Of a DNA stretch of 64,000 nucleotides, positions 28,795-43,771 are shown in pieces. The first letter of the stretch is position 1. Each line of letters opens with the position of its first letter. Both the position numbers and the translations under genes were made by a program. The stretch spans positions 1,971,501 to 2,035,500 of the forward strand of contig NZ_CP047602.1 of NCBI RefSeq assembly GCF_009905255.1, read 5' to 3'. Source of the stretch: Thermoanaerobacterium aotearoense (GTDB taxonomy: Bacteria; Bacillota; Thermoanaerobacteria; Thermoanaerobacterales; Thermoanaerobacteraceae). The notes beneath the pieces are model-generated. The model made no database searches. It was not told where the DNA came from and saw only the letters and a program-made list of their open reading frames with translations.

Positions 28795-30120
28795 TCAGCC
28801 TTTTTGGCTCTCAACAGCCATCGCTTGCTCTTGCTCAAGGTACTGTCTATCTACGACTCTTAAGAATGGCAAGTATATGAAGAACGAAATCACTAATTCA
28901 ATTATCTGCCATACAGCACCGCTAAAGCCTGATACTAAAAGTCCTCCGATAATAGGTGGCGTAGTCCATGGTATTACAACACCTGTTGGGTGCCCAACAA
29001 GACCTATTGACATGACGATGTAAGTCAAAGTAGCCAAAATCATCGGTGTCAATATGAATGGTATTACCATTATTGGGTTTAAAACAATTGGAAGTCCGAA
29101 TATTACAGGTTCATTGATATTGAATAAACCAGGAACTATAGCAAGTTTTCCAACAGTCTTAACCTGTCTTGATTTCGAGAAGAAAAGCATAGCAAGTACA
29201 AGTCCTAATGTGCTGCCTGAGCCACCTACCAGCATGTACATGTCGTGGAACTGCTGTGTTATGATGTGTGGAACTGGATGACCAGCTTGGAATGCCTGCA
29301 AGTTCTCTGCTGCAAGTGCCAGCCATATTGGTCCCATAACAGATCCAACTACATTTGCACCGTGTATACCAAATGACCAGAAAAGTCCTTCGAAGAAGTT
29401 AGCAATCAATGTAGCAGGTAGTGTATCTCCAAGTCTTGTCAAAGGTATCTGCAATACTGTGTAGATAAATTGATGTATTGTACCGTAAGATGTCATAGCA
29501 AACAGCATTCTTATAACATCGATGATGATAGCAACTATAGCCGCAGGTATCAATGCAGAGAAAGCTCTTTCAACTGCAGGTGGAACACCTTTTGGCATCT
29601 TAATTACCCAGCCTCTTTTTATAACAAATCTTACGATTTCTACTGACAGTATCGCCGTCAAAATACCTACAAATAGACCTTTTGAGCCCATCCAATCAAC
29701 TGGTATGCCACCACTTACTTGAATTGCTTTTTTAGCTCCTTCAGGTGTATAATTAACTATAAACGGTGTAAATATCAAAAATGCAACGAGTGCAGTTGCA
29801 GCCGTGTTTAAACCATCAATCTTATAATGCCCTGCGAGGCTATACGCAATGCCAAATACTACAAATATACTCATTATTGACATTGTAGCCTCAAAGGGCC
29901 TCATAAAGAATGTATTCCAGTTTGGTCCAAAAGCCTTTGCCATAAAATCAGAGTATCCAGGTATGGGCAAAAACGCCAGCAACAAGAAAACAGCACCTAT
30001 TGTAATGAGTGGAACAGCAAGCATAAAGCCATCACGAATTGATGTCAAGTACCTATTTTCGGAGATTTTGCCTGCTATAGGCATCAATTTTTCTTCAAGC
30101 GAATCTGTAAACTTACTCAT
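28795..30120 (-). CDS. celB: PTS cellobiose-family permease, EIIC
   Basis: A 441-residue membrane permease of the lactose/cellobiose PTS family. It opens FTDSLEEKLMPIAGKISENRYLTSIRDGFMLAVPLI and carries GLFNINEPVIFGLPIVLNPIMVIPF, the substrate-binding NEP motif of this class. About ten membrane segments. It transports and, with IIA and IIB, phosphorylates a beta-disaccharide. ATG behind AAGGAGTG. Confidence 0.93.
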   Translation of the reverse strand: MSKFTDSLEEKLMPIAGKISENRYLTSIRDGFMLAVPLITIGAVFLLLAFLPIPGYSDFMAKAFGPNWNTFFMRPFEATMSIMSIFVVFGIAYSLAGHYKIDGLNTAATALVAFLIFTPFIVNYTPEGAKKAIQVSGGIPVDWMGSKGLFVGILTAILSVEIVRFVIKRGWVIKMPKGVPPAVERAFSALIPAAIVAIIIDVIRMLFAMTSYGTIHQFIYTVLQIPLTRLGDTLPATLIANFFEGLFWSFGIHGANVVGSVMGPIWLALAAENLQAFQAGHPVPHIITQQFHDMYMLVGGSGSTLGLVLAMLFFSKSRQVKTVGKLAIVPGLFNINEPVIFGLPIVLNPIMVIPFILTPMILATLTYIVMSIGLVGHPTGVVIPWTTPPIIGGLLVSGFSGAVWQIIELVISFFIYLPFLRVVDRQYLEQEQAMAVESQKG

Positions 30121-30656: not shown

Positions 30657-31187
30657 TTAATCTTGCGGAAAATATCCTTCCTCTTCAGGAGATCCTATAG
30701 GCTGCCCTTGAGCCAACTTTACTGCAAACTTTGATATCTTTCTTAATGAATCGTTTAGGCCTATACCACCCCTGTTTGGAGTCTCTATGATGTATATCTT
30801 TTTTCTGAACAATTCTGTGCCTGTGTTGTCTTTTGACATAGCCGCAAACGCAGGAATATTTAATTTCTCTATGACAGCTTCTGTCAAATATCCACAGCAA
30901 TCACCGTATCTTTTGTAGTTTAATGCGGGGCCGCATATAACAACATCTGGATTAAACGCCTTTATCATGCTTAATAATTTTTCAATAGCTTCATCCTTAT
31001 TTTCAAGAAAATAGTTATCACCACAAATTACAGTGCCAATTATGTCACCGCCGTTTCTCATCATGGTGTTTTTCAAAAGCATGCCCAATCCTATAGCACC
31101 AAACTGAGATTGAGGTTCCATATTCATTTTTTCATCTGTTCCGTATCCTGCTTGAACTTGATTTAAAAATTGTACCGCTTTAATCAT
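30657..31187 (-). CDS. GrdB N-terminal-domain-like protein in a PTS operon
   Basis: A 176-residue soluble protein that resembles the N-terminal domain of GrdB, the substrate-specific subunit of glycine/sarcosine/betaine reductase. Matching segments are GTVICGDNYFLENKDEAI, VVICGPALNYKRYGDCCG and GSPEEEGYFP. In GrdB the chain continues into a C-terminal domain holding selenocysteine. Here it ends with TAA right after GSPEEEGYFPQD, so that domain is absent, not read through. ATG behind TAGGAGG. It lies between IIA and IIB in one transcript. Function in a sugar operon is unknown; substrate reduction is unlikely without the Sec domain. Confidence 0.75.
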   Translation of the reverse strand: MIKAVQFLNQVQAGYGTDEKMNMEPQSQFGAIGLGMLLKNTMMRNGGDIIGTVICGDNYFLENKDEAIEKLLSMIKAFNPDVVICGPALNYKRYGDCCGYLTEAVIEKLNIPAFAAMSKDNTGTELFRKKIYIIETPNRGGIGLNDSLRKISKFAVKLAQGQPIGSPEEEGYFPQD

Positions 31188-31802: not shown

Positions 31803-31847
31803 AAGATATAGGTAGAGAAAGTTATTGTGGTAAAGGGGATCTTTAAG

Positions 31848-34547
31848 TTGAAAAGAAAAGAATTAATTTTAAAAAAGTTGATAGAGCTAAACAGAGGAAA
31901 CGGCGTAGATGCCATGACATTGGCAAATGAGCTAAATATGTCGCGAGCAAACGTTAGTCACGAGTTAAATCTTTTGTGCAAGGAAGGAAAAGTCGTAAAG
32001 TCAGATGGCAGGCCAGTGATGTTTTCACCTGTGTTTGAAAGTGCTAAAAGCAATTCCAGCGACAGCAAATTGTATGAGCTGGACATGCTTATTAAAAACA
32101 ATATAAGCCTAAAACAGGCCGGTGAACAGGCAAAAGCTGCTATTTTATATCCTCCTAAGGGAATCCACTGCTTAATATTAGGTGAAACAGGTGTAGGAAA
32201 ATCAACTTTTGCGCGAATAATGCACAAGTATGCCATAGATATGGGTGTAAAAAAGCCTGACGCTCCATTCATAGCATTTAACTGCGCAGATTACAGCAAC
32301 AATCCGCAGCTTTTGACGGCACAGCTATTTGGGGTCAAAAAAGGCGCTTACACAGGTGCCGATACAGACAAAGAAGGGTTAATCGAAAAGGCAAATGGAG
32401 GAATCTTATTCCTTGATGAAGTCCATCGCTTGCCGCCTGAAGGACAGGAGATCCTATTCACTTTCCTCGATACTGGGTATTTTAGAAGAGTTGGCGATGT
32501 AGAAAATAGGACATCTGATGTTCTAATCATATCGGCTACAACTGAGGATCCTTCTTCATCCCTTTTAAATACATTCACCAGAAGAATACCGATGATAATT
32601 AAAATACCACCACTTAGAGAAAGGACTTTAGAAGAAAGGTTTTATCTTTTAAAAAGATTCTTTAAACACGAAAGCATAAAGCTAAACAGAGATATATTCG
32701 TATCGCTTAATTCCATGAGGGCGTTTTGTTCATATGACTGTCCAAACAACATCGGTCAATTAGAAAGCGATGTCAAGCTTATATGTGCAAAGGTCTATTC
32801 AGAATTTCTGACTAACAAGAAAAGCGACATAAGGATCTGCAGCAGAGACTTGCCTGATTATATAAAGAAAGGATTATATACAGATAAACAGCATAGAATG
32901 CTGTGGAATGAAGTCATAGGCGATGATATAGAGTTCTTTAAGTTTTCTCCTACAAATGAAATAGAGGAGATTCCAACTGCCTCTAACGATAACAGCATTT
33001 ACGAGATAATAAATGATAGACTAAAGCAGCTTAAAGCAAAAGGTATATCTGATATAGACATTGAATCAATTTTGGAGAAAGACATAGCAAAGTACTTCCA
33101 CAAGCAGATATATGGTATAACTGAGGAGAAAAACAAGCAAAACTTGATTCACATCTTAGGAGAAGACATAATAAGCATTACAGATAGGATTGCAGAACTG
33201 GCATCCGAACTACTGGGAAAAGATCTCAGTCAAAACAGCTATACTGCACTTGCTTTGCACTTAAACACGCTTATTGAAAGGGTCAACAAAAATAAGCCTA
33301 TTGTAAATCCTCAACTATCAAAAATAAAACAATTATACCCAAGGGAATTTGAAGTTGCTATTGAAGCCAAAAAAATCATAGAGAGATATTTGAATGTTTC
33401 GATTCCAGAAGATGAGGCTGGATTTATCGCAATATTTCTCATGTCCGATAAGGAATACATCAATAAGCAAAGTGAGAAAGTCAAGGTGATAATAATTGCC
33501 CATGGCAATTCTACTGCCACATCCATGGCAGATGTGGCCAATAAATTGTTGGGTGAAAATTATGCAATAGGCTTAGATGCCCATCTTGACAAAAGTCCCC
33601 TTGAAGTATTAGAAAGTTTGAAAGACTACGTGAGGCATGATATGAATCAGGCAGGATACCTTCTCTTAGTAGACATGGGCTCCCTTACAACATTTGGCGA
33701 AACGATTGAAAAAGAGTTTAATGTGCCAGTAAAAGTTATACCGCTTATTTCCACTCTTCACGTCATCGAAGCTACCAGAAAAGCGCTGTTAGGCATGCCT
33801 CTTAACAATATTTACATGAGCGTACAGTCGATAAATTCGTACATGGAGAACAACATGGATTTTGCTCCACTGATAAGCGACAAAAAGAAAATCGCAATCA
33901 TAACAGCATGTCTTACTGGGGAAGGCGCCTCTGTTGCAATCAAAAGTTTCTTAAAAAACAACTTAAAGTACGACAAAGATTTATTTGAGATAATACCAAT
34001 TGACAGCCTTGATAAACACATGACAATGAAGAAAATAAACGAAATCCAGGAAAACATGGAAATAGCTTTTATCGTATCGTCTTTCCCATTGGATACTAAT
34101 ATTAAACAGTACAGCATGAATGACGTCTTAAGCTTAAAAGTCATGAAAGAATTGCAGGAGATAGTAGATATTAAGACAACCCTTATCAAGATGGGCAATG
34201 TATTGAAAGAAAACATCCATAACATCGATGGCGAGGAACTCTACATCGATATACAAAACACTATAATGAAGCTTTGCGACACGCTGTCGATTTGCTTTGA
34301 TGATGACATGCTGCTTGGCATAATACTTCACTTTGCTTTTATGGTAAGCAGAATCAAAAAAGGAGAAAAAAGCATTGAGTATATAGGAAAAGAAGAATAT
34401 ATTAAAAACAACAAATCATTGTACAACGCAGTAAAGAAAGCATTGACGCATTTAAACACAAAATATTCTATAATAATACCTGATGATGAAATATGCTATA
34501 TAATGAGATTTTTCCAGGAAAAAGATGCTCTTTTCAATATGATATGA
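31848..34547 (+). CDS. celR: LevR/CelR-type PTS-controlled sigma-54 activator
   Basis: An activator of about 899 residues. In order: N-terminal helix-turn-helix (about 1-50), AAA domain with Walker A GETGVGKST (about 112), the sigma-54-contacting GAYTGA loop (about 166) and Walker B ILFLDEV (about 186). Next come a PRD domain with His in LALHLN (about 471), a mannose-IIA-like domain with IIAHGNS (about 552), a IIB-like segment and a second PRD (ILHFAFM near 830). Phosphorylation of these His residues by HPr and the PTS would set activity. TTG at 31848 has AAAGGGGAT upstream; GTG at 31827 is the alternative. It is divergent from the PTS operon it should activate. Confidence 0.92.
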   Translation: MKRKELILKKLIELNRGNGVDAMTLANELNMSRANVSHELNLLCKEGKVVKSDGRPVMFSPVFESAKSNSSDSKLYELDMLIKNNISLKQAGEQAKAAILYPPKGIHCLILGETGVGKSTFARIMHKYAIDMGVKKPDAPFIAFNCADYSNNPQLLTAQLFGVKKGAYTGADTDKEGLIEKANGGILFLDEVHRLPPEGQEILFTFLDTGYFRRVGDVENRTSDVLIISATTEDPSSSLLNTFTRRIPMIIKIPPLRERTLEERFYLLKRFFKHESIKLNRDIFVSLNSMRAFCSYDCPNNIGQLESDVKLICAKVYSEFLTNKKSDIRICSRDLPDYIKKGLYTDKQHRMLWNEVIGDDIEFFKFSPTNEIEEIPTASNDNSIYEIINDRLKQLKAKGISDIDIESILEKDIAKYFHKQIYGITEEKNKQNLIHILGEDIISITDRIAELASELLGKDLSQNSYTALALHLNTLIERVNKNKPIVNPQLSKIKQLYPREFEVAIEAKKIIERYLNVSIPEDEAGFIAIFLMSDKEYINKQSEKVKVIIIAHGNSTATSMADVANKLLGENYAIGLDAHLDKSPLEVLESLKDYVRHDMNQAGYLLLVDMGSLTTFGETIEKEFNVPVKVIPLISTLHVIEATRKALLGMPLNNIYMSVQSINSYMENNMDFAPLISDKKKIAIITACLTGEGASVAIKSFLKNNLKYDKDLFEIIPIDSLDKHMTMKKINEIQENMEIAFIVSSFPLDTNIKQYSMNDVLSLKVMKELQEIVDIKTTLIKMGNVLKENIHNIDGEELYIDIQNTIMKLCDTLSICFDDDMLLGIILHFAFMVSRIKKGEKSIEYIGKEEYIKNNKSLYNAVKKALTHLNTKYSIIIPDDEICYIMRFFQEKDALFNMI

Positions 34548-34551
34548 AAAA

Positions 34552-34576
34552 TCCCCTGTGCATTGTGCATAGGGGA
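34552..34576. terminator. Bidirectional terminator between celR and the mannosidase gene
   Basis: TCCCCT / AGGGGA arms with an inner TGCA pairing lie 5 bp past the celR stop. T-rich runs follow on both strands, serving two convergent genes. Confidence 0.85.
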
Positions 34577-34597: not shown

Positions 34598-37063
34598 TTA
34601 CATCCTTAATATGAGATTCGAAATATCAAATATTTTTATATCCCCAGGCTCTTTTGAACATTTTAAAGTGTACTTTTCATCCGGTATCATGTTAAGAAAG
34701 TTGTCACTTAGAGAAACGTCGTTTTCTGTGTCGACAAACACTCCAAATGCAGGTACATCAGTTGAAAGAATTATGTCAGTTCCATCGACATGGTACGTAA
34801 TGTTAGGTTCTGTAAGTTTAAGATTCCTAAATTTATCAAAAACATAGTAATTTTCATATATCTTTTCATCAACAATCATCCTTACGTATACGACGCTGTT
34901 TAATAGTTTCCAATTTTTCTCAACAGGAAGTGTACAATGGGATGCATCAACAGGTACCACATGAGGCACATGCTCTTCAGCAATCTGGCGCTCATCATAA
35001 TGCGCTATTTTTACAACATCGTTAGCAATCAATCTTGTATTAAACTTTTTCTCCCACATCTTTTCACCATCAAGGCTGTAGCACAATACTTCCACATATG
35101 CTTCTACATCCTGCTGCAAATCGCTTATGCCGTAAATCGTTATTCCGCCGTCTTCCCCTGCGATATATGGCAAAACATTTGCAAAAAACCTGCCAGAATA
35201 ATAGTAAAGAGCCTTTTTCCTTTTGTAGTAGTCTATGCAAGACCAGCTTGCTACTGGCCAACAATCATTAAACTGCCAATAAAGTGTTCCTGCCGTCTTA
35301 AATTTACGGCTTCTCCAATGCTCCACTCCTTTTTTTATGGCTTCAGCTTGATTAAACTGTGTCAAATACACAAAACTTTTGAAGTCTTTTGGGAAGCCCA
35401 GCTCACTTATCATGTACCTTATAAGCCTTTCCATGCCACTTATCTGCTTATTGTGTGATACAACAACAGGACTTAAAATACTCCTGTCTTCTTCATTCGT
35501 ATACGACAAAATCGTCTTCCAATCAGGCATAGACTGAAATCCAAACTCGCTTAAAAATCTGCTTTCATCGGACAAATATTCTTTTATGTCAGCCCATCCA
35601 CTCCACACGTTCCAATGATGTCTGTCACCTTCTGATTCACTGTTGGGATCTACTCCACCGTATGGGCTTGATACCCAATAAGGTCTTGAAGGATCGTATC
35701 TCTTGCATATTTGCGGAAGTATTTCCTTGTACACGTAATTCCCTAAATATTTTGGATCGCCATTGCCCCACCATGAATAAAATCCCATGTTATTTTCATT
35801 GTTTCCGCACCACAATACAATAGAAGGATGGTTTCTCAACCTGAATAAAACTTCCTTGGCCTCAGAGGCCGCCAACTGCTGGAACCACTCCAATTGATCT
35901 GGGTACTGTGCACATGCATACATAAAATCCTGCCAAACCATTATGCCCATTTCATCACACGCATCATAGAAAGCCTCATCCTCGTAAATACCGCCACCCC
36001 AGACTCTTAACATATTCATATTAGCATCTTTAGCAAGCTTTATAAATGTGTAATAATCCTCCTTGGTTATTCGTGGCAAAAAGCTATCTGCAGGTATCCA
36101 ATCAGCCCCTTTGGCAAAAATCTTTATTCCGTTTATTTCAAAGATAAAGCTTTCGCCAATATCATCTTTCTCACGAAGAAGTTTTACAACTCTTATACCT
36201 GATCTGAAATTTAGCTCATCAACAACCACATCTGCCATCGTAAGCTTTATGCAAATGTCGTAAAGATTTTGTGACCCTACACCATTTGGATACCATAGCT
36301 TTGGTTCATCTATCTTAAACGCCGCATCAATTTCACCGTATGTAATTGGGACAACTTTTCTACCGCATACTTCTCCATCATATGAAATAGTGACTTCCGC
36401 CTTTAGGTCAAAATCAGCAAAATACGATATAGAGGCAGAAACCCTTACATAAGCTGCGCCATCTTTCAACTTTTCTGTGTAAAAGAACGGTTTTTCAATT
36501 GCCGCATCTTTTATGACAGATATATATACATCTCTCCACAGCCCAACTTGAACCAATCTCGGGCCCCAATCCCATCCAAATGAATACTGCGCTTTTCTAA
36601 TGTATGGTCTGGCCGATTCAAACGATGATTCCAGCTTCAGAGGACTGTCTCTTTCAATGCTTCTTATCGCCTTTGTTATAGATTGAAAATACACTTCTAA
36701 AACATTGTTTTTCTCTTTTATCAAATCTGTCACATCATATTCATAGGAAATAAACATGTTTTCAGCAGTGCCTAAATAATCTCCGTTAAGGTAAATGTCC
36801 GCCAACGTGTCGATGCCTTCAAACACCAACTTGATTTCGTCAAATTCATCAGGAAATTCAAAATCGAATTCTTTTCTGTAAATCCATTCTTTATCCTCTA
36901 ACTTGTGACATTCAATTTCATTCATGCGATAAAACGGATCGCCAATCTTGTTTTGAGCCATTAAATCAAGCTGAATGCATCCAGGAACTTTACCTTCAAG
37001 CCAGTCATATGAAGTCGCTTCTCTAAATTGCCATGTACCATTTAATGAAATGCGATTTTCCAT
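34598..37063 (-). CDS. Beta-mannosidase, GH2
   Basis: An 821-residue GH2 enzyme of the beta-mannosidase type. It has an N-terminal jelly-roll (WIYRKEFDFEFP), the mannosidase hallmark YSFGWDWGPRL (160-170), acid/base E423 in WCGNNENN and nucleophile E506 in FLSEFGFQ. No signal peptide, so it acts on imported mannosides. ATG behind AAAGGAGGAGG. It is the last gene of the dehydrogenase-isomerase operon, 75 bp after the preceding gene, and is followed by a terminator. Confidence 0.93.
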   Translation of the reverse strand: MENRISLNGTWQFREATSYDWLEGKVPGCIQLDLMAQNKIGDPFYRMNEIECHKLEDKEWIYRKEFDFEFPDEFDEIKLVFEGIDTLADIYLNGDYLGTAENMFISYEYDVTDLIKEKNNVLEVYFQSITKAIRSIERDSPLKLESSFESARPYIRKAQYSFGWDWGPRLVQVGLWRDVYISVIKDAAIEKPFFYTEKLKDGAAYVRVSASISYFADFDLKAEVTISYDGEVCGRKVVPITYGEIDAAFKIDEPKLWYPNGVGSQNLYDICIKLTMADVVVDELNFRSGIRVVKLLREKDDIGESFIFEINGIKIFAKGADWIPADSFLPRITKEDYYTFIKLAKDANMNMLRVWGGGIYEDEAFYDACDEMGIMVWQDFMYACAQYPDQLEWFQQLAASEAKEVLFRLRNHPSIVLWCGNNENNMGFYSWWGNGDPKYLGNYVYKEILPQICKRYDPSRPYWVSSPYGGVDPNSESEGDRHHWNVWSGWADIKEYLSDESRFLSEFGFQSMPDWKTILSYTNEEDRSILSPVVVSHNKQISGMERLIRYMISELGFPKDFKSFVYLTQFNQAEAIKKGVEHWRSRKFKTAGTLYWQFNDCWPVASWSCIDYYKRKKALYYYSGRFFANVLPYIAGEDGGITIYGISDLQQDVEAYVEVLCYSLDGEKMWEKKFNTRLIANDVVKIAHYDERQIAEEHVPHVVPVDASHCTLPVEKNWKLLNSVVYVRMIVDEKIYENYYVFDKFRNLKLTEPNITYHVDGTDIILSTDVPAFGVFVDTENDVSLSDNFLNMIPDEKYTLKCSKEPGDIKIFDISNLILRM

Positions 37064-37138
37064 GTGCCTCCTCCTTTCCCATCAAAATTTTTCGTATTTG
37101 TTATTTGTACATATTATTCATGATTTATATATTTTATT

Positions 37139-38182
37139 TTATAGTTCAACAGCTTTTCCTGTTTCGCTTGATTTAAATGCAGCTTCTATTATCGAATAAA
37201 CTCTTTTTACTTCATCTGGTTTTACTATAAGCTCCGCTTTTCCTTCGATCGTATCGCGGACATTTGCATAAAACTCTATCCACTCCGTATCTACATCTGG
37301 AAGCTCAAAATGATCTTTTACTTCTTCCGGCCTCGGCGCAAATGTGCGGGTCGGTCCTGCTGTTGTCTCTACTATTTCCGCATCAAATTTGTCTGCAAGC
37401 TTATTTAGCTTGACAATTTCGCCATGCCCTTCAAAATCATCTACTACCAATGTCCCTTTGTCTCCTCCAACAAACCATCTCGGCAATGGCTTTAAACAAA
37501 ATGTCCCAACTTCTATCTGCGCAGATAACCCATTGTCAAATTTCATCAATAGTTTGAAATAGTCGTCTACATCTTTGTTTAATACGCTAAATAGTTCAGC
37601 GTATACTCTAACTACTTTATTGGGAATCATATATAGAATTTGGTCTATAAGGTGGACACCCCAATCTAAAAGCATCCCACCGCCGCACTCTTTTTTATTC
37701 CTCCAACCGTAAATCAATCCACCTGCACCGTGTACTCTGCTTTCGATTGTATAGACATCGCCAATCATGCCTAATTCTACGGCTTTTTTCACTTTATTAA
37801 AGTCTTTATCCCATCTGCGGTTTTGATGTACTGTAAATACTACATTATTCTTTTCTGCAGCCTCTATTATTTCATCTATTTCTTTCATCGACATTGCAAC
37901 AGGCTTTTCAACTATGACATTCTTTCCAGCATTGGCTGATGCCACTGCAAGATCTTTATGCACATCGTTGGGAGTTGCGATTAATACAGTATTTACTTCC
38001 TCATCTTTCAAAAATTCATCCAAATTATCATATCCTCTAAGTCCAGCCTTTTTCGCTACATCGACTTGATATGCATCAATATCGTACGCCGCTACTACAT
38101 CTACACATTTAACTTTTGGGGCGTTTTTATGATGCCACATTCCCATGCCACCATAGCCTATTATTCCAAGTTTTATTGGCAT
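37139..38182 (-). CDS. Gfo/Idh/MocA-family sugar dehydrogenase 1
   Basis: A 347-residue oxidoreductase. It has an N-terminal Rossmann fold (GIIGYGGMGMWHH), the family EKP motif in VEKPVAMS, and a C-terminal sheet domain with GGGMLLDWGVHLIDQ. It is expected to use NAD(P) to oxidise or reduce a sugar or cyclitol hydroxyl. ATG at 38182 behind AGGAGGTAG; the frame opens further upstream but without a site. It follows the second isomerase gene and precedes the mannosidase gene. Confidence 0.88.
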   Translation of the reverse strand: MPIKLGIIGYGGMGMWHHKNAPKVKCVDVVAAYDIDAYQVDVAKKAGLRGYDNLDEFLKDEEVNTVLIATPNDVHKDLAVASANAGKNVIVEKPVAMSMKEIDEIIEAAEKNNVVFTVHQNRRWDKDFNKVKKAVELGMIGDVYTIESRVHGAGGLIYGWRNKKECGGGMLLDWGVHLIDQILYMIPNKVVRVYAELFSVLNKDVDDYFKLLMKFDNGLSAQIEVGTFCLKPLPRWFVGGDKGTLVVDDFEGHGEIVKLNKLADKFDAEIVETTAGPTRTFAPRPEEVKDHFELPDVDTEWIEFYANVRDTIEGKAELIVKPDEVKRVYSIIEAAFKSSETGKAVEL

Positions 38183-38258
38183 CTTTCTACCTCCTATTGT
38201 GATTAAATAAAAACATTTTATAGACAAGTAGACTCGACTACTTGCCTATGTAAAGTAT

Positions 38259-39179
38259 TTATATGAATTGTTTCAAATGATCATACCCTAATTTCAATCC
38301 CTCTTTGACTTTTTCCTCGCTGCCTTCATACAGTGGGTCTTCATGCTCGATGCTTATAACTCCATCGTATCCTACATCTTTTAAGGCTTTTATGAACTTG
38401 TTCCAATCAACTTGGCCAAGGCCAGGCATCCTAAACCTCCAATAGCCTGTTTCGCCTTTTTTATGAAATTGCCTGTTAAATACGCCATACCATTCAAGCT
38501 TATCTTTGAAGATTTCAGCGTCTTTTGCATGTACGTGGAAAATTCTATCCTTAAATGCTGGCACAACTTTTACATAATCAATTAGCTGAAATAAAAGATG
38601 CGATGGATCTAAGTTCAGTCCAAAATTCATAGACGGTATTCGCCTAAACATTTCCTCCCAAAGCTCTGGAGTAAATGATATTGTACCAGGAAGTCCTTCT
38701 CTCTGCCAACCTTCCATTGGACAATTTTCGATTATGACTTTTACTCCTTTGCTTTCCGCATAGCTTACTATATCGCCAAAGACTTCTTCAAATTCGTCAA
38801 AATTTTCTTTTAAGTTTTTCTCGGGATTTCTCCCTATAAAGGTTCCAACCATAGATGTGCCTAACATTGCTGCAGCATCTATGCACTTTTTGGTGTGATT
38901 GTTTATAAATGCCCTCTTTTCAGGATTAGGATGTAAATTATTATCGTAGTATGCCAAAGATGATATAGAAAGACCTAAATCGCTCATGTATTCTTTTATC
39001 TTTTGAGCTTCTTCTTCTGTCAGCGTCTCTACATCTATGTCACAACTGGAATAGTCTCTGTCGTTTAGCTGTGGCCAGCAAGCGATCTCTAATGATTTAA
39101 AACCATTCTCTGATGCCCACTTTGCCTTATCCAAAAGTGGCATATTTCCTAAACAAACTGTTAAAAATCCAAGATGCAT
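38259..39179 (-). CDS. Sugar isomerase/epimerase-family TIM barrel 2
   Basis: A 306-residue protein of the AP-endonuclease-2/xylose-isomerase-like family. Metal ligands are visible at strand ends: E in VIIENCP, D-H in NLDPSHL, H in HVHAKD and E in SIEHEDP. Family members epimerise, isomerise, dehydrate or cleave keto-sugars. ATG behind GAGGAGAG. It belongs to the same operon as two Gfo/Idh/MocA dehydrogenases, hinting that it acts on the oxidised intermediate. Confidence 0.85.
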   Translation of the reverse strand: MHLGFLTVCLGNMPLLDKAKWASENGFKSLEIACWPQLNDRDYSSCDIDVETLTEEEAQKIKEYMSDLGLSISSLAYYDNNLHPNPEKRAFINNHTKKCIDAAAMLGTSMVGTFIGRNPEKNLKENFDEFEEVFGDIVSYAESKGVKVIIENCPMEGWQREGLPGTISFTPELWEEMFRRIPSMNFGLNLDPSHLLFQLIDYVKVVPAFKDRIFHVHAKDAEIFKDKLEWYGVFNRQFHKKGETGYWRFRMPGLGQVDWNKFIKALKDVGYDGVISIEHEDPLYEGSEEKVKEGLKLGYDHLKQFI

Positions 39180-39192
39180 AATCTATCTCTCC

Positions 39193-39927
39193 TCACATTT
39201 TGTTTATATTATGAAAGCTTATCTTAGCACTTTCAAGGGGCGGTCTTTTGCAAACATCTTGTTCAACTATAAACCATTTGACACCTGCCTCGAGTGAAGC
39301 GTCTATAATATCCTTAATATTCATAATACCTTCGCCAATCTCAGCAAAATCCTTTGTTGCCCCATCCATGTCCTTTAGATGTACCAAGGGCACACGACCA
39401 CTGTACTTTTTAATGTAACTTGCAGGATCTTCTCCAGCATATTTGACCCAATACGTGTCTATCTCCGCCTTCAAAAAATTTGAATTTGAATTTTCATAGA
39501 TCAGATCCAACCCGTATTTTCCGTCAAAGTTAACGAATTCATGATTATGATTGTGATAACAAAAAATCAATCCTTTTTCTGCACACTTCTCTCCTATTTC
39601 ATTAAAAAGTTTTGCAGTTTCAATGAAATCCTCTTTCGCCTCGTATTTGTTCCAAGGGCATACAATGTATTTGTTTCCTATTTCAAGGTTGTACTCTATT
39701 TCCTTGTCGAGATTACTTTTTAGCGCATCTAAACTTATGTGACTTCCAGTCGGAGTCAATCCAAGCCGTTCTAAATGTCTTCTCATTTCATTTGCCTTTA
39801 AGCCACCGTATCCTGCAAATTCTACGCCTTTGTACCCTATCTCAGCCACTTTTTCTAAAGTACCTACAAAATCGTCTTTCAATTCATTTCTTACAGTGTA
39901 TAGCTGTAATGACAACGGCAAATCCAT
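39193..39927 (-). CDS. Sugar isomerase/epimerase-family TIM barrel 1
   Basis: A 244-residue member of the same superfamily as its neighbour but shorter and closer to the inosose-dehydratase/YcjR type (LSLQLYTVRNELK, CYHNHNHEF, AEIDTYWV, VHLKDMD). I prefer the ATG at 39927 with GGGTGAT upstream; a GTG at 39936 that overlaps the previous stop (GTGA) is the alternative. It probably binds a divalent metal. Its reaction is not known from sequence. Confidence 0.83.
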   Translation of the reverse strand: MDLPLSLQLYTVRNELKDDFVGTLEKVAEIGYKGVEFAGYGGLKANEMRRHLERLGLTPTGSHISLDALKSNLDKEIEYNLEIGNKYIVCPWNKYEAKEDFIETAKLFNEIGEKCAEKGLIFCYHNHNHEFVNFDGKYGLDLIYENSNSNFLKAEIDTYWVKYAGEDPASYIKKYSGRVPLVHLKDMDGATKDFAEIGEGIMNIKDIIDASLEAGVKWFIVEQDVCKRPPLESAKISFHNINKM

Positions 39928-39932
39928 ATAAA

Positions 39933-41024
39933 TCACCCGATTTCATTAAAGTATACTGGCTTACCAGTTTTTGAAGATGTATATATTGCCTCTAATATCT
40001 GTGATACTACGTATGCTTCCTCTGGCTTTACAACAGGTTCCGTATCGTTTATAATGCTTTCTATCCACAACCTTGCCTCTAAGTCAGCAGCATCTTCTGC
40101 CTTTCCTTCGTAAAATGCTACGCCGCCTGAACTTAAATCGATTTTTGTAGTGTACAATCGCCCATTCATCTCTCCATTGATCCTAAGCCCATCTTTCATG
40201 TCAGCTCCACCTTCTGTCCCACACAATGTGGTCTTGGCTTCATCCACATCGAGAGAATTTAAGGCCCAACTGGATTCTAAAACGATCGTTGCACCATTTT
40301 CCATTGTTATAAAGCCAAAGGCCGAATCTTCCACCGTAAATTTATCAGGATCCCATGGTCCCCAAGCATTCGCTGCATTTCTTTTTTCAGCTAATTTACG
40401 GTATGTATTTCCGACAACGTATTTAGGCTTGTAATTGTTCATCATCCAAAGGGTCAAATCAAGTGCATGTGTGCCAATATCTATAAGAGGTCCTCCGCCT
40501 TGTTCTTCTTCGTTTAAAAATACTCCCCATGTAGGAACAGCACGCCGCCTTATGGCATGTGCCTTTGCAAAGTATATCTCACCTAAGACGCCGTCTTGGC
40601 ATAATTTGTGCAGATACTGAGAGTCCGGTCTAAAGCGGTTTTGATACCCTATTGTCAACTTCTTTCCAGTTCTTTTTGCAGCATCCAGCATCTTTTTAGC
40701 ATCATTAGCAGTCTTTGCCATAGGTTTTTCACACATGACGTGCTTTCCAGCTTCTAATGCATCAACTGTTATATCTGAATGTGATTTATTTGGTGTACAC
40801 ACGTGCACCACATCAATGCTTTTATCCTCTAAAAGCTTTCTGTAGTCATTATACGTTTTAGCACCATCTACACCATAATCTTTTGCAGCCTTTAATGCTT
40901 TCTCCTCTTTTACATCGCAAAAAGCAACCATTTCTACATTGTAAAGCTTTGACAGGGATGGCATGTGCTTGCCATTTGCTATGCCTCCACAACCTATTAT
41001 TCCAACTCTTATCTTCTCTCCCAT
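39933..41024 (-). CDS. Gfo/Idh/MocA-family sugar dehydrogenase 2
   Basis: A 363-residue Rossmann oxidoreductase (GIIGCGGIANGKHMPSL, then CEKPMAK and GGGPLIDIGTHALDLTLWMM). It is distinct from the enzyme at 37139-38182. ATG at 41024 behind AAGGAGG, which is just after the LacI stop. It is followed at once by the first isomerase gene, so one dehydrogenase-isomerase pair is tightly linked. Confidence 0.88.
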   Translation of the reverse strand: MGEKIRVGIIGCGGIANGKHMPSLSKLYNVEMVAFCDVKEEKALKAAKDYGVDGAKTYNDYRKLLEDKSIDVVHVCTPNKSHSDITVDALEAGKHVMCEKPMAKTANDAKKMLDAAKRTGKKLTIGYQNRFRPDSQYLHKLCQDGVLGEIYFAKAHAIRRRAVPTWGVFLNEEEQGGGPLIDIGTHALDLTLWMMNNYKPKYVVGNTYRKLAEKRNAANAWGPWDPDKFTVEDSAFGFITMENGATIVLESSWALNSLDVDEAKTTLCGTEGGADMKDGLRINGEMNGRLYTTKIDLSSGGVAFYEGKAEDAADLEARLWIESIINDTEPVVKPEEAYVVSQILEAIYTSSKTGKPVYFNEIG

Positions 41025-41038
41025 AAAAATTTCCTCCT

Positions 41039-42031
41039 TCATTTCACAGTAGAATGCCTTATTATCAATTCATGTTCTAAAACTATGTTTTCTTTATTAC
41101 CTCCTTTATTTTCTATTTGCTTTATGAGTAGCTCCATCGCAGTACAACCTATATCGTACTTTGGCTGAGACACCGTTGTAAGAGACGGATTGTACATGGG
41201 AGCAAAACTTATATTGTCAAATCCAACAATGCCAATGTCATCAGGTACCTTCAAACCATTTTCACAACATGATTTAATTGCTCCAATAGCCATTATGTCT
41301 GATATGGCAAATATTGCTGTAATCTCTTTGTGATCATTTAAGAGACCTTGTGCTGCCCTGAAGCCGCTTTTAAATGAATAATCGCCGTACCTTATGTAGT
41401 CGGGATTAAAAGGAATTCCTGAATCCTCTAAAGCACTTTTATATCCTTCTTCTCTGTGTTTTGTGGACAAAAAATTATTTTTGCAGCTAATAAGTCCGAT
41501 GTGCTTATGCCCTAATCCAATCAGATGCTTTACCGCCTTGTACGATGCTTTGTAGTTATCTATAGAGACGTGTGAGACATTTGCACCTTCTTTGTACTCG
41601 CAGCACTGCACAACAGCGTATCTTTCTCCTATCTCGTTAAGCTCATCCTTATCCATCTCAGGCGCCATGAAGATTACGCCGTCAGACAACCTGTTCTTTA
41701 AAAGCTCCAGGTACATCTTTTCTCTTTCAATGTTGGAATCTGTATTGCAAAGCATCACACCATACCCATTCTTTTGCGCCACATCCTCTATGCCTTTTAC
41801 TATTCTTGCGTAAAATGGATTTGATATTGTAGGAAGCAATACCAGAACCATCTTAGTCTCCATCCTGCGGAGATTTCTGCCTAAAAGATTAGGATTGTAG
41901 TTTAGCCTTTTTATGACAGATAAGACTCTTTCTCTCGTCTCATCCGAGACGCCAGGACTGTTATTCAAAACCCTAGATATTGTAGCAACTGAAACACCAG
42001 CTTCTTTGGCAACATCTTTTATCGTTATCAT
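41039..42031 (-). CDS. LacI-family regulator of the dehydrogenase-isomerase-mannosidase operon
   Basis: A 330-residue repressor: HTH TIKDVAKEAGVSVATISRVLNNSPGVS, hinge NPNLLGRNLRR, and a sugar-binding-like effector domain (GIVGFDNISFAPMYNPSLTTV). ATG behind GAAGGAGC. First gene of its operon. Two GTAA-N4-TTAC near-palindromes upstream are candidate operators. Confidence 0.92.
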   Translation of the reverse strand: MITIKDVAKEAGVSVATISRVLNNSPGVSDETRERVLSVIKRLNYNPNLLGRNLRRMETKMVLVLLPTISNPFYARIVKGIEDVAQKNGYGVMLCNTDSNIEREKMYLELLKNRLSDGVIFMAPEMDKDELNEIGERYAVVQCCEYKEGANVSHVSIDNYKASYKAVKHLIGLGHKHIGLISCKNNFLSTKHREEGYKSALEDSGIPFNPDYIRYGDYSFKSGFRAAQGLLNDHKEITAIFAISDIMAIGAIKSCCENGLKVPDDIGIVGFDNISFAPMYNPSLTTVSQPKYDIGCTAMELLIKQIENKGGNKENIVLEHELIIRHSTVK

Positions 42032-42043
42032 GGCAGCTCCTTC

Positions 42044-42055
42044 GTAATTGATTAC
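42044..42055. promoter_or_regulatory. LacI operator candidate, promoter-proximal
   Basis: GTAATTGATTAC is palindromic except for its centre and lies 13 bp upstream of the repressor start. It shares AATTGATTACTAT with the operator candidate of the other LacI gene (26.6 kb). Confidence 0.55.
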
Positions 42056-42119: not shown

Positions 42120-42131
42120 GTAACGGATTAC
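42120..42131. promoter_or_regulatory. LacI operator candidate, distal
   Basis: GTAACGGATTAC has the same GTAA-N4-TTAC frame as the proximal site, 76 bp away, close to seven helical turns, which would suit looping by a tetramer. Nothing else is recognisable in the rest of this gap up to the ligase terminator. Confidence 0.5.
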
Positions 42132-42269
42132 ATAAATATCATAAATCAAGTTTTCCATCATGTCAATTTCAATAGCTGCTTCCAGTTTTATATTTCCAGC
42201 AATTTGACGTATCTACCTTCAAATAACTTTTATTTGCTTCCATTTTTGCGCAATTGAAACTTGTCCTAA

Positions 42270-42297
42270 AAAAAGCCACGCTCATGACGTGGCTTTT
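42270..42297 (-). terminator. Terminator of the hprK-glucokinase-ligase unit
   Basis: AAAAGCCACG and its complement form a 10-bp stem with a 7-nt loop at the ligase stop. On the minus strand the stem ends in a run of seven T. Confidence 0.9.
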
Positions 42298-42298
42298 A

Positions 42299-43771
42299 TC
42301 ATTTAAGCAACTTCTTTAGCACTTTACCTGTTGGGCTCTTAGGAAGTTCATTGACAAATTCAAATATCTTAGGAATTTTGTATTTTGCCAATTTATCGTG
42401 CAAGAAGCTTTGCAGCTCTTTTCTGTCTGCAGTCTTTCCATCCTCCAACACGATAAACGCCTTTACTTCCTCTCCTTTGTATTTATCGCCGACTCCAATG
42501 ACTGCAGCTTCTCTTACTGCAGGGTGCTCCATAATGGCTTCTTCTACTTCTCTTGGATATACATTAAATCCTCCCAAGATGATCATGTCTTTCAATCTAT
42601 CAACAATGTAATAATAGCCATCTTCGTCTTTTTTTGCAAGATCACCTGTATGAAGCCATCCATTTCGCAAGGTTTTCGCTGTCTCATCAGGCATGTTGTG
42701 ATAGCCCACCATTATGTTGGAACCTTTTAAAATAAGCTCTCCCACCTCACCAACTGGCACTTCATTGTCATCCTCATCTACTATTTTAGCTTCATTGCAT
42801 GGAAGGGGAAGTCCTATGGAGCCTGGCTTTCTTATTTCATCAGCTCCAAGCGGATTCAGCAAAGCCACCGGCGCAGCTTCTGACAATCCGTATCCTTCAA
42901 CCAAAGGGAAATTAAACTTTTCCTCAAAACCCCTTTGCACTTCTGGCGCTAACGGCGCACCACCTGAGATAGCAAGCCTTAATGCTTTAAACTGCCCTTT
43001 TTCCACCATTCTAATCAAAAATGCAAAAATAGATGGAACACCGCAAAATACCGTTATATCTTCATTTAAAAGCGTCTCCAACGTATCCTTCGGCATGAAG
43101 CTGTCTTTGATAGTAACTGTGCTTCCAAGGTACAGTGCCAGCAGCACATTTACCGTCCATGAAAAGCTGTGGAAAAGCGGCAGCACACACAAAAAGTTGT
43201 CATCTGGACCTAAATCAGATATTTCATCCATAGCTATCACATCAGCTTCAAAATTTCTATGCGTAAGCATAGCGCCTTTTGGCTTACCAGTTGTCCCAGA
43301 TGTGTATAGGTATGTGCAGACCTCATCATCATTTATCTCAACTTGCTTAAAATCGTCATGTTTCATTATCTTTTGCTTTGTTTCATCATTTAAGACTACT
43401 ATGTTTTTTAAATTTAGCTTGCCGAAAGCTGATACATCCACATTTTTAAGTACAACTGGATGCACTATAATCGTATCCGCTCCAGACTCTTTGACGACGT
43501 ACTGGATTTCTTCCATAGTGTACATGAGGTTTAAAGGAATTGTAATAGCTCCAGCCTTAGCGGAACCTAAATACGCAAAAACAAATTCAGGGCAGTTTGG
43601 CATACTGAGTATGACTCTATCGCCTTTTTTGACACCTAAAGATTGAAGATAGGATGCATAGCTATTTACGTATTTAGGCAAATCGCCGTATGTTATTGTC
43701 TCACCTTTAAACTTTATGGCAACGTGATCCTTTAAATTTGCGTTTTTTTCATAAAATTGATAAATCTTCAC
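42299..43771 (-). CDS. Long-chain acyl-CoA ligase-like AMP-forming enzyme
   Basis: A 490-residue member of the ANL superfamily. It has the AMP-binding loop YTSGTTGKPKGAMLTH, the GYGLSEAAP motif, the hinge YYIVDRLKDMIILGGFNVYPREVE and the catalytic Lys near the end (KSPTGKVLKK). It activates a carboxylic acid, likely a fatty acid, to its CoA ester. Start: GTG at 43771 behind AAGGGG; the upstream frame lies inside the glucokinase gene. Why it is linked to sugar-kinase genes is not evident. Confidence 0.87.
   Translation of the reverse strand: MKIYQFYEKNANLKDHVAIKFKGETITYGDLPKYVNSYASYLQSLGVKKGDRVILSMPNCPEFVFAYLGSAKAGAITIPLNLMYTMEEIQYVVKESGADTIIVHPVVLKNVDVSAFGKLNLKNIVVLNDETKQKIMKHDDFKQVEINDDEVCTYLYTSGTTGKPKGAMLTHRNFEADVIAMDEISDLGPDDNFLCVLPLFHSFSWTVNVLLALYLGSTVTIKDSFMPKDTLETLLNEDITVFCGVPSIFAFLIRMVEKGQFKALRLAISGGAPLAPEVQRGFEEKFNFPLVEGYGLSEAAPVALLNPLGADEIRKPGSIGLPLPCNEAKIVDEDDNEVPVGEVGELILKGSNIMVGYHNMPDETAKTLRNGWLHTGDLAKKDEDGYYYIVDRLKDMIILGGFNVYPREVEEAIMEHPAVREAAVIGVGDKYKGEEVKAFIVLEDGKTADRKELQSFLHDKLAKYKIPKIFEFVNELPKSPTGKVLKKLLK

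Follow-up and report, generated by a model that had tools for sequence, protein, structure and literature searches.

The 64,000-nucleotide stretch of Thermoanaerobacterium aotearoense DNA analysed here (hereafter the window; G000:C1:1971501-2035500 of a single-contig genome) carries a six-gene operon on its minus strand, which we propose to encode a pathway of non-hydrolytic deglycosylation, whereby a glycoside is oxidised, cleaved by elimination, hydrated and finally reduced. Judged by homology, the probability of this reading is roughly 80%. An original prediction, made from the DNA letters, had named a LacI gene, two Gfo/Idh/MocA dehydrogenases flanking two triosephosphate isomerase (TIM) barrels, and a glycoside hydrolase of family GH2. 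All six genes, their families and their order were borne out, as listed below in window positions.

41039 to 42031, minus strand: LacI-family repressor, operon gene 1 (Pfam LacI and Peripla_BP)
39933 to 41042, minus strand: Gfo1, 369 amino acids (aa), candidate DgpA-type glycoside 3-dehydrogenase (Gfo/Idh/MocA; phmmer against PDB)
39193 to 39936, minus strand: TIM1, 247 aa, candidate 3-keto-O-glycoside 1,2-lyase (beta-eliminase) (AP_endonuc_2; AtOGE match)
38259 to 39179, minus strand: TIM2, 306 aa, candidate 2-hydroxy-3-keto-glucal hydratase (AP_endonuc_2; profile and model)
37139 to 38182, minus strand: Gfo2, 347 aa, second Gfo/Idh/MocA enzyme, DgpA2/3e18 subfamily (PDB matches)
34598 to 37063, minus strand: GH2, 821 aa, candidate beta-mannosidase and optional passenger (PDB matches)

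What the data show is homology, conserved active sites, the ranking of folds, gene linkage and conserved palindromes; the route itself we infer from homology, and its reactions and their order, the metal, the cell location, the function of the operators and the inducer belong to the proposal. The pathway would be cytoplasmic, as judged from the N termini by eye. Gfo1 with bound nicotinamide adenine dinucleotide (NAD) would oxidise C3 of the sugar in an imported O-glycoside. Using a divalent metal and His130, TIM1 would then abstract the proton at C2, so that the aglycone, or the sugar at the reducing end, departs in a beta-elimination. The 2-hydroxy-3-keto-glucal that remains would be hydrated by TIM2 to 3-keto-glucose. 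Reduction of the latter to glucose would be achieved by Gfo1, acting like DgpA with 3-keto-glucose as hydride acceptor, and/or by Gfo2. GH2 would be an optional helper that acts on imported compounds of this class by stripping their beta-mannosyl residues, and LacI, through its two palindromic operators, would keep the unit repressed as long as no sugar inducer is present.

For the oxidation step, a phmmer search of the PDB aligned Gfo1 over nearly its full length with DgpA1 (9m3d, E 2.1e-139) and DgpA (7xr9, E 5.4e-129). Lys106 of the EKP motif and the pair D188/H192, which we take to be catalytic residues, do not vary among the 14 sequences aligned. Gfo1 is thus a homologue of the glycoside 3-dehydrogenases and a candidate for which C3 oxidation of glycosides is predicted. 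The original prediction had likewise proposed a Gfo/Idh/MocA enzyme making 3-keto-glycosides, and the grouping of Gfo1 with C3-oxidising enzymes (DgpA, E 5e-129) supports it. DgpA is reported to keep its NAD bound and to oxidise C3 by a ping-pong mechanism with 3-oxo-glucose as acceptor (PMC11239390).

TIM1 matched AtOGE of Agrobacterium (8bvk) with E 6.8e-33 as a single sequence and 6.3e-43 as a family profile. In AtOGE, His132, Asp163, His189, Glu233 and His134 are described as metal ligands or base (PMC10628242). All five have counterparts in TIM1, where H128, H130, D160, H186 and E225 correspond to H132, H134, D163, H189 and E233, and the five are the same in all 11 sequences aligned. The AlphaFold2 model of TIM1 (predicted local distance difference test score, pLDDT, 93.8) found as its top folds 3-keto-beta-glucopyranoside-1,2-lyases at Z 30.2 (8tcr), 30.2 and 29.1. 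Two Parabacteroides structures, named only as 'sugar phosphate isomerase/epimerase', gave Z 29.8 and 27.6, AtOGE, a shorter chain, gave Z 26.0, and 7dre (DfgA-B) stood at rank 45. Sequence and model together make TIM1 a candidate 3-keto-O-glycoside 1,2-lyase homologue with a metal site and a catalytic His, and this assignment is firmer than that of TIM2.

The TIM2 profile matched SCO6571 (2zds, 1.6e-21), MJ1311 (3wqo, 1.1e-14) and AtHYD (8ro4, 1.3e-11) in the PDB; DgpB/DgpC structures were missing among these sequence matches, and no conclusion is drawn from that. The predicted model (pLDDT 90.7) matched SCO6571 best (Z 32.0), followed by AtHYD (Z 30.8 at 22% identity). Residues E151, D191, H217 and E278 are invariant in 17 of 17 rows, and we infer that they serve as metal ligands. 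The protein is 100% identical to its counterpart in T. saccharolyticum NTOU1.

Gfo2 falls in a clade separate from that of Gfo1. Its nearest relatives are PDB 3e18 (E 1e-85) and DgpA2 with isoorientin (9m37, E 3.5e-79). Gfo1 and/or Gfo2 are candidates for the 3-keto-glucose reductase, and Gfo1 alone may complete the cycle. A final reduction, already supposed in the original prediction, is rated likely.

The sequence of oxidation, elimination, hydration and reduction is considered the most likely because the lgd, Agrobacterium and DgpA precedents match the enzymes of this operon. In Bacillus smithii, LgdA oxidises C3 of levoglucosan, LgdB1 eliminates, and LgdB2 hydrates and can weakly eliminate, with LgdC as the enzyme that reduces 3-keto-glucose to glucose; each of these proteins was purified and assayed (PMC7676230). 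The lgdA-lgdB1-lgdB2-lgdC cluster resembles the present operon in its two Gfo/Idh/MocA genes, two dissimilar TIM barrels and a LacI-family gene nearby, whereas it differs in having its own ATP-binding cassette (ABC) transporter and, in the available part of the report, no listed GH2 (PMC7676230). As the original prediction stated, no transporter gene lies within our operon. Its picture of two dehydrogenase-isomerase sets fared less well: the genes are better taken as one four-enzyme set. The levoglucosan pathway itself was considered and rejected: against the levoglucosan dehydrogenase model NF052479, with a cut-off of 650, Gfo1 scored 122.7 bits (123 when rounded) and Gfo2 80.9 bits, and Gfo1 is not LgdA.

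For an Agrobacterium operon the same route has been proposed with the aryl O-glucoside phlorizin, and the elimination was demonstrated (PMC10628242). Its AtOGE and AtHYD (8bvk, 8ro4) have relatives here, TIM1 being homologous with the same five residues and TIM2 being a remote AtHYD homologue, and a Gfo reductase is also present there (PMC10628242). The first oxidation differs: Agrobacterium relies on GlycDH of the GMC family, while the present operon has a DgpA-type Gfo candidate (PMC10628242, PMC11239390). That candidate, Gfo1, is a close homologue of DgpA from the DgpA/DgpBC C-glycoside system (bacterium PUE, D3dgpA; PMC8563793, PMC11239390). Unlike that system, the operon lacks the C-glycoside deglycosidase (CGD) alpha/beta complex, its genome has no beta subunit match, and TIM1 is OGE-like. 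The Bacteroides BT2159-BT2156 operon is of the same kind and acts on disaccharides and glucosinolates (PMC11300592, PMC12385236). The AL1/BT1 3-keto-beta-glucopyranoside-1,2-lyases (8tcr, 8tct) are the nearest folds to TIM1; BT2158, however, is periplasmic, unlike the predicted cytoplasmic enzymes of our operon (PMC11300592), and Gfo1 and Gfo2 reach 35-76 bits against the BT_2158/BT_2159 models, which have cut-offs of 750/650. The chemistry is already known. What seems to be new is the combination: thermophilic anaerobes here join a DgpA-type dehydrogenase to a lyase of the OGE type and a barrel like AtHYD, optionally with a mannosidase, all behind a LacI leader with two palindromes. We did not find this combination described in the Thermoanaerobacterium literature, as judged by the titles listed (20 of 31 and 20 of 91), in a search that most subscription journals lay outside.

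Comparison with other genomes indicates that the gene set is more than chance, because Gfo1 clusters with TIM2 in 19 of the 20 loci returned by a TIM2 scan. The scan used peptide patterns of the window protein, which favours close relatives, and several of the 20 loci are near-identical and so not independent. The exception (L008) begins at a contig end, and in L018 a GH39 gene sits between Gfo1 and TIM2. TIM1 is in the cluster in 14 of the 20 loci and a second Gfo gene in 12, its slot being occupied by three different subfamilies (Gfo2 type in four, Gfo3 type in six, F35 type in two). Within the genus, a close TIM2 was found in eight of the nine Thermoanaerobacterium genomes searched; the ninth (G004), a 610-contig assembly, gave a weak match only. 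A neighbourhood search had been suggested to map the spread of the five-gene set. The core of LacI, Gfo1, TIM1 and TIM2 is constant in all eight genus loci (the window counted), while Gfo2 (7/8) and GH2 (5/8, one split) proved optional.

In the wider phylum sample of 398 genomes (thresholds E <= 1e-60 for TIM2 and E <= 1e-110 for Gfo1), TIM2 occurs in 23, Gfo1 in 37 and both in ten, seven of which are from the window's own order. TIM2 genes without Gfo1 adjoin other Gfo genes in L093-L097, L099, L100 and L103. Among 20 distant Gfo1 regions (L104-L123, mainly the top-ranked among 37 Gfo1 places that lie outside the window's order), a TIM2-like gene is present in ten and a TIM1-like gene in six, and at least six (L104, L109, L110, L114, L115, L120) hold two Gfo genes with both barrel types. 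This six-of-20 count is a lower bound, and gene families of relatives were labelled by similarity to the window proteins. The open reading frame (ORF) picker retains the longer of overlapping frames, by which Gfo1 (L118, L102), TIM2 (L101) and a CGD beta subunit (L125) were missed. L105 and L106 come from large-genome relatives in the phylum. In L106 the DgpA-like and TIM2-like genes have between them a gene for ThuA (trehalose utilisation), and L105 has at that place a 246-aa ORF of equal length, a hint that ThuA may take part in this 3-keto chemistry. A shared substrate was also sought among the neighbours of the Thermoanaerobacter-type loci L003 and L006 and rejected, as those neighbours are of the hexuronate type (tagaturonate epimerase, 6PGD and mannitol-dehydrogenase families, FGGY kinase, 2-hydroxyacid dehydrogenases) with no common glycoside.

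Several observations weigh against the proposed deglycosylation route. None of the six operon proteins reaches any NCBIfam cut-off. SCO6571, the single best structural match of TIM2, has no assigned function; sequence similarity between TIM2 and AtHYD lies chiefly in the C-terminal third; next in its fold list stand Art22, an isomerase (Z 29), and several ketose 3-epimerases (Z 26-27); and the best NCBIfam match of TIM2 is 5-keto-L-gluconate epimerase, at 54 bits against a cut-off of 300. For these reasons the hydratase label of TIM2 is less secure than the lyase label of TIM1. TIM2 may perform the elimination too, as reported for LgdB2, because four loci (L013, L016, L017, L020) have Gfo1 and TIM2 without TIM1; they have no second Gfo gene either, and L013 and L016 lie near contig ends. 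At the thresholds used, 13 of the 23 TIM2 genomes lack Gfo1 and 27 of the 37 Gfo1 genomes lack a close TIM2. Finally, no other gene of the same genome has a convincing copy of the operon's palindrome, which leaves no regulon to point to the substrate.

The original prediction took the E. coli ycj cluster as its model and expected oxidation, epimerisation and reduction: the barrels would epimerise a 3-keto-glycoside and the second dehydrogenase would reduce it, so that the glycoside is remodelled and not cleaved. The superfamilies are the same, ycj has two sugar dehydrogenases together with YcjR (PMC11543891), ketose 3-epimerases are among the next folds of TIM2, and YcjR (6wn6) does appear in both fold lists, at Z 22.2 and rank 28 for TIM1 and at Z 25.1 and rank 47 for TIM2, lower ranks that do not in themselves exclude epimerase activity. 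However, lyases score higher than YcjR as folds of TIM1 (Z 30 vs 22), as does AtHYD in the case of TIM2 (31 vs 25), and the catalytic His of AtOGE is kept in TIM1. One isomerase is listed for ycj in the available part of the source, whereas the operon has two barrels of different families (PMC11543891), and, unlike ycj, the operon has no phosphorylase or ABC genes. With lyases and hydratase outranking YcjR, the epimerising middle step is probably wrong, and we regard this model as improbable. Inositol-type catabolism, with the Gfo enzymes as inositol dehydrogenases and the barrels as inosose dehydratases or isomerases, has in its favour that the NCBIfam matches include IolG and IolE models. 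Their scores fall far below the cut-offs, though (IolG 123-137 bits vs 355; IolE 46-60 vs 290), the DgpA and lyase matches are far stronger, and no IolB, C, D or J is among the operon genes, all of which makes it very improbable indeed.

A third alternative is that cleavage of C-C bonds in C-glycosides of the flavonoid type is the main job, with Gfo1 and Gfo2 as DgpA and DgpA2, to which both dehydrogenases are near. It draws on relatives of the locus. In G003, alone of the eight genus genomes with the locus, about 14 kb fills the gap between the ligase gene and lacI (window 42174-42321, 146 bases). This insert (L124:556-10964 with L056:11064-18914) places a cluster with two CGD beta subunits (PF19906), each adjoining an AP_endonuc_2 barrel, directly 5' of lacI; it also holds a GH39-AraC fusion, a hexokinase, a GPH-type symporter, and relatives of TIM2 (44%), Gfo1 (62%) and Gfo2 (50%, 222 aa). 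Listeria costaricensis L018 has a similar set, joining the beta subunit with Gfo1, Gfo2 and TIM2. PF19906 was detected in three of 396 sampled genomes (G003, G165 and G227, in the last on a different contig), all within the ten that have both the Gfo1 and the TIM2 marker. Yet the same search, positive in those three, gave no PF19906 match in the T. aotearoense genome, where a diverged subunit could escape it, and AtOGE, to which TIM1 is similar, has been reported as specific for O-glycosides (PMC10628242). We thus hold C-glycoside cleavage as the main role to be a poor prospect and retain O-glycoside deglycosylation as the preferred function.

The nearest solved structures to GH2 are beta-mannosidases (5n6u, E 3e-195; 2vjx, E 2.5e-144). 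Both motif glutamates, E423 (WCGNNE) and E506 (SEFG), are present and align with 2vjx; we take them to be the catalytic pair. On the closest structures and these glutamates, GH2 is a candidate beta-mannosidase, and no signal peptide was recognised when its N terminus was read by eye. The mannosidase had been offered as a clue to the substrate. It is indeed present here, but as an optional neighbour it is weak evidence for a mannoside. In G002 the gene is split into two overlapping frames (L055:7457-9923), by a frameshift or a sequencing error, and the T. saccharolyticum NTOU1 locus L002 has the same split.

Further features of the transcription unit are as follows.

42272 to 42296, minus strand: terminator-like hairpin after an acyl-CoA ligase gene, setting the ligase apart from the operon (by eye)
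42138 to 42166, minus strand: sigma-70-like promoter, TTGACA-17-TATGAT (11 of 12 consensus matches)
42120 to 42131, no strand assigned: operator candidate 1, GTAATCCGTTAC (minus-strand reading), directly 3' of the -10 element
42044 to 42055, no strand assigned: operator candidate 2, GTAATCAATTAC (minus-strand reading), directly 5' of the lacI ribosome-binding site
38220 to 38249, minus strand: 12-bp hairpin in the TIM2-Gfo2 gap, terminator-like or a processing site (sequence scan)
34552 to 34576, no strand assigned: terminator-like hairpin 3' of GH2, before a convergent plus-strand regulator gene (scan)

The description of the operon as one tight unit holds for the closely packed genes from LacI to TIM2, where LacI-Gfo1 and Gfo1-TIM1 each overlap by 4 bases and the TIM1-TIM2 gap is 13 bases. 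Gfo2 and GH2, in contrast, follow after gaps of 76 bp, which holds the 12-bp hairpin, and 75 bp. The listed Gfo2 ORF starts at TTG 38227, while a Shine-Dalgarno-like sequence favours ATG 38182. Five of the six other genus genomes with both genes (G002, G003, G005, G007, G008) keep the TIM2-Gfo2 hairpin, and G006 has another hairpin in this gap. A terminator had also been placed at the operon end, and the hairpin at 34552-34576, which also lies at the end of the convergent regulator gene, agrees with it, although the scan taken alone is weak evidence (8 sites vs 6.2 expected).

The promoter call reflects a consensus match only, as the scan gave 44 sites against 36.0 expected. Two copies of the palindrome core GTAA-N4-TTAC lie 5' of lacI in 12 of the 13 loci where lacI adjoins Gfo1, and one copy in the 13th, whereas only seven of the 32 copies lie elsewhere in the 20 loci (330,367 bases in total). 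In the T. aotearoense genome the exact 13-base pattern of the palindrome had two matches, both at the operon, against three for the reversed control; with one mismatch there were 14 against 23, and no regulon member can be named. Nor did the palindrome search point to a transporter elsewhere in the genome, the matches not exceeding the reversed control. We read the pair of conserved palindromes as a possible local switch worked by LacI, and LacI looks like a local autorepressor because no further convincing sites occur in the genome. In a second class of locus (L062, L063, L064, L100), Gfo genes accompany a LacI gene (~45%) and a TIM2 paralogue (42-44%). L062 and L063 have genes identified as those of a ribose-type ABC transporter, L062 also has a ROK kinase, and in L062-L064 palindrome cores of the same type are located within lacI or close to it.

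Convergent with GH2, window 31827-34547 (plus strand) encodes a LevR/DagR-like sigma-54 activator with PRD domains. The window also holds a phosphotransferase system (PTS) EIIC gene (28795-30120) and, near it, a GrdB-related gene (30657-31187, minus strand; NF041545 GrdB_like_no_Se, 162.7 bits vs a cut-off of 175). Other places in the genome, G000:C1:50310-51427 and 1792932-1801129, also have Gfo/Idh/MocA genes with an AP_endonuc_2 barrel adjacent or close by.

A bolder form of the deglycosylation pathway, which we consider rather unlikely as a whole, is a self-priming and net NAD-neutral cycle, with 3-keto-glucose as catalytic hydride carrier via NAD locked in Gfo1. Gfo1 would take a hydride from every glycoside that enters and hand it to 3-keto-glucose, the product of TIM1 and TIM2, and the second dehydrogenase (Gfo2, Gfo3 or F35 type) would be interchangeable, only starting or draining the cycle or broadening the substrates. 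As the stereocentres at C1 and C2 are lost on elimination, such a cycle would turn beta-glucosides and beta-mannosides alike into glucose. If true, this common end product would give the neighbouring GH2 mannosidase a metabolic logic.

If the deglycosylation reading is right, Thermoanaerobacterium, a genus employed in biofuel research, can cut glycosides without hydrolysis, an ability so far unrecognised in it, and offers thermophile candidates for all four steps. The O-glycoside (AtOGE type) and C-glycoside (DgpA/CGD type) pathways would be linked here by a shared DgpA-like dehydrogenase family, and in one sister species (G003) the O- and C-glycoside clusters adjoin. Annotations as 'isomerase/epimerase' would also be replaced by specific, testable reactions.

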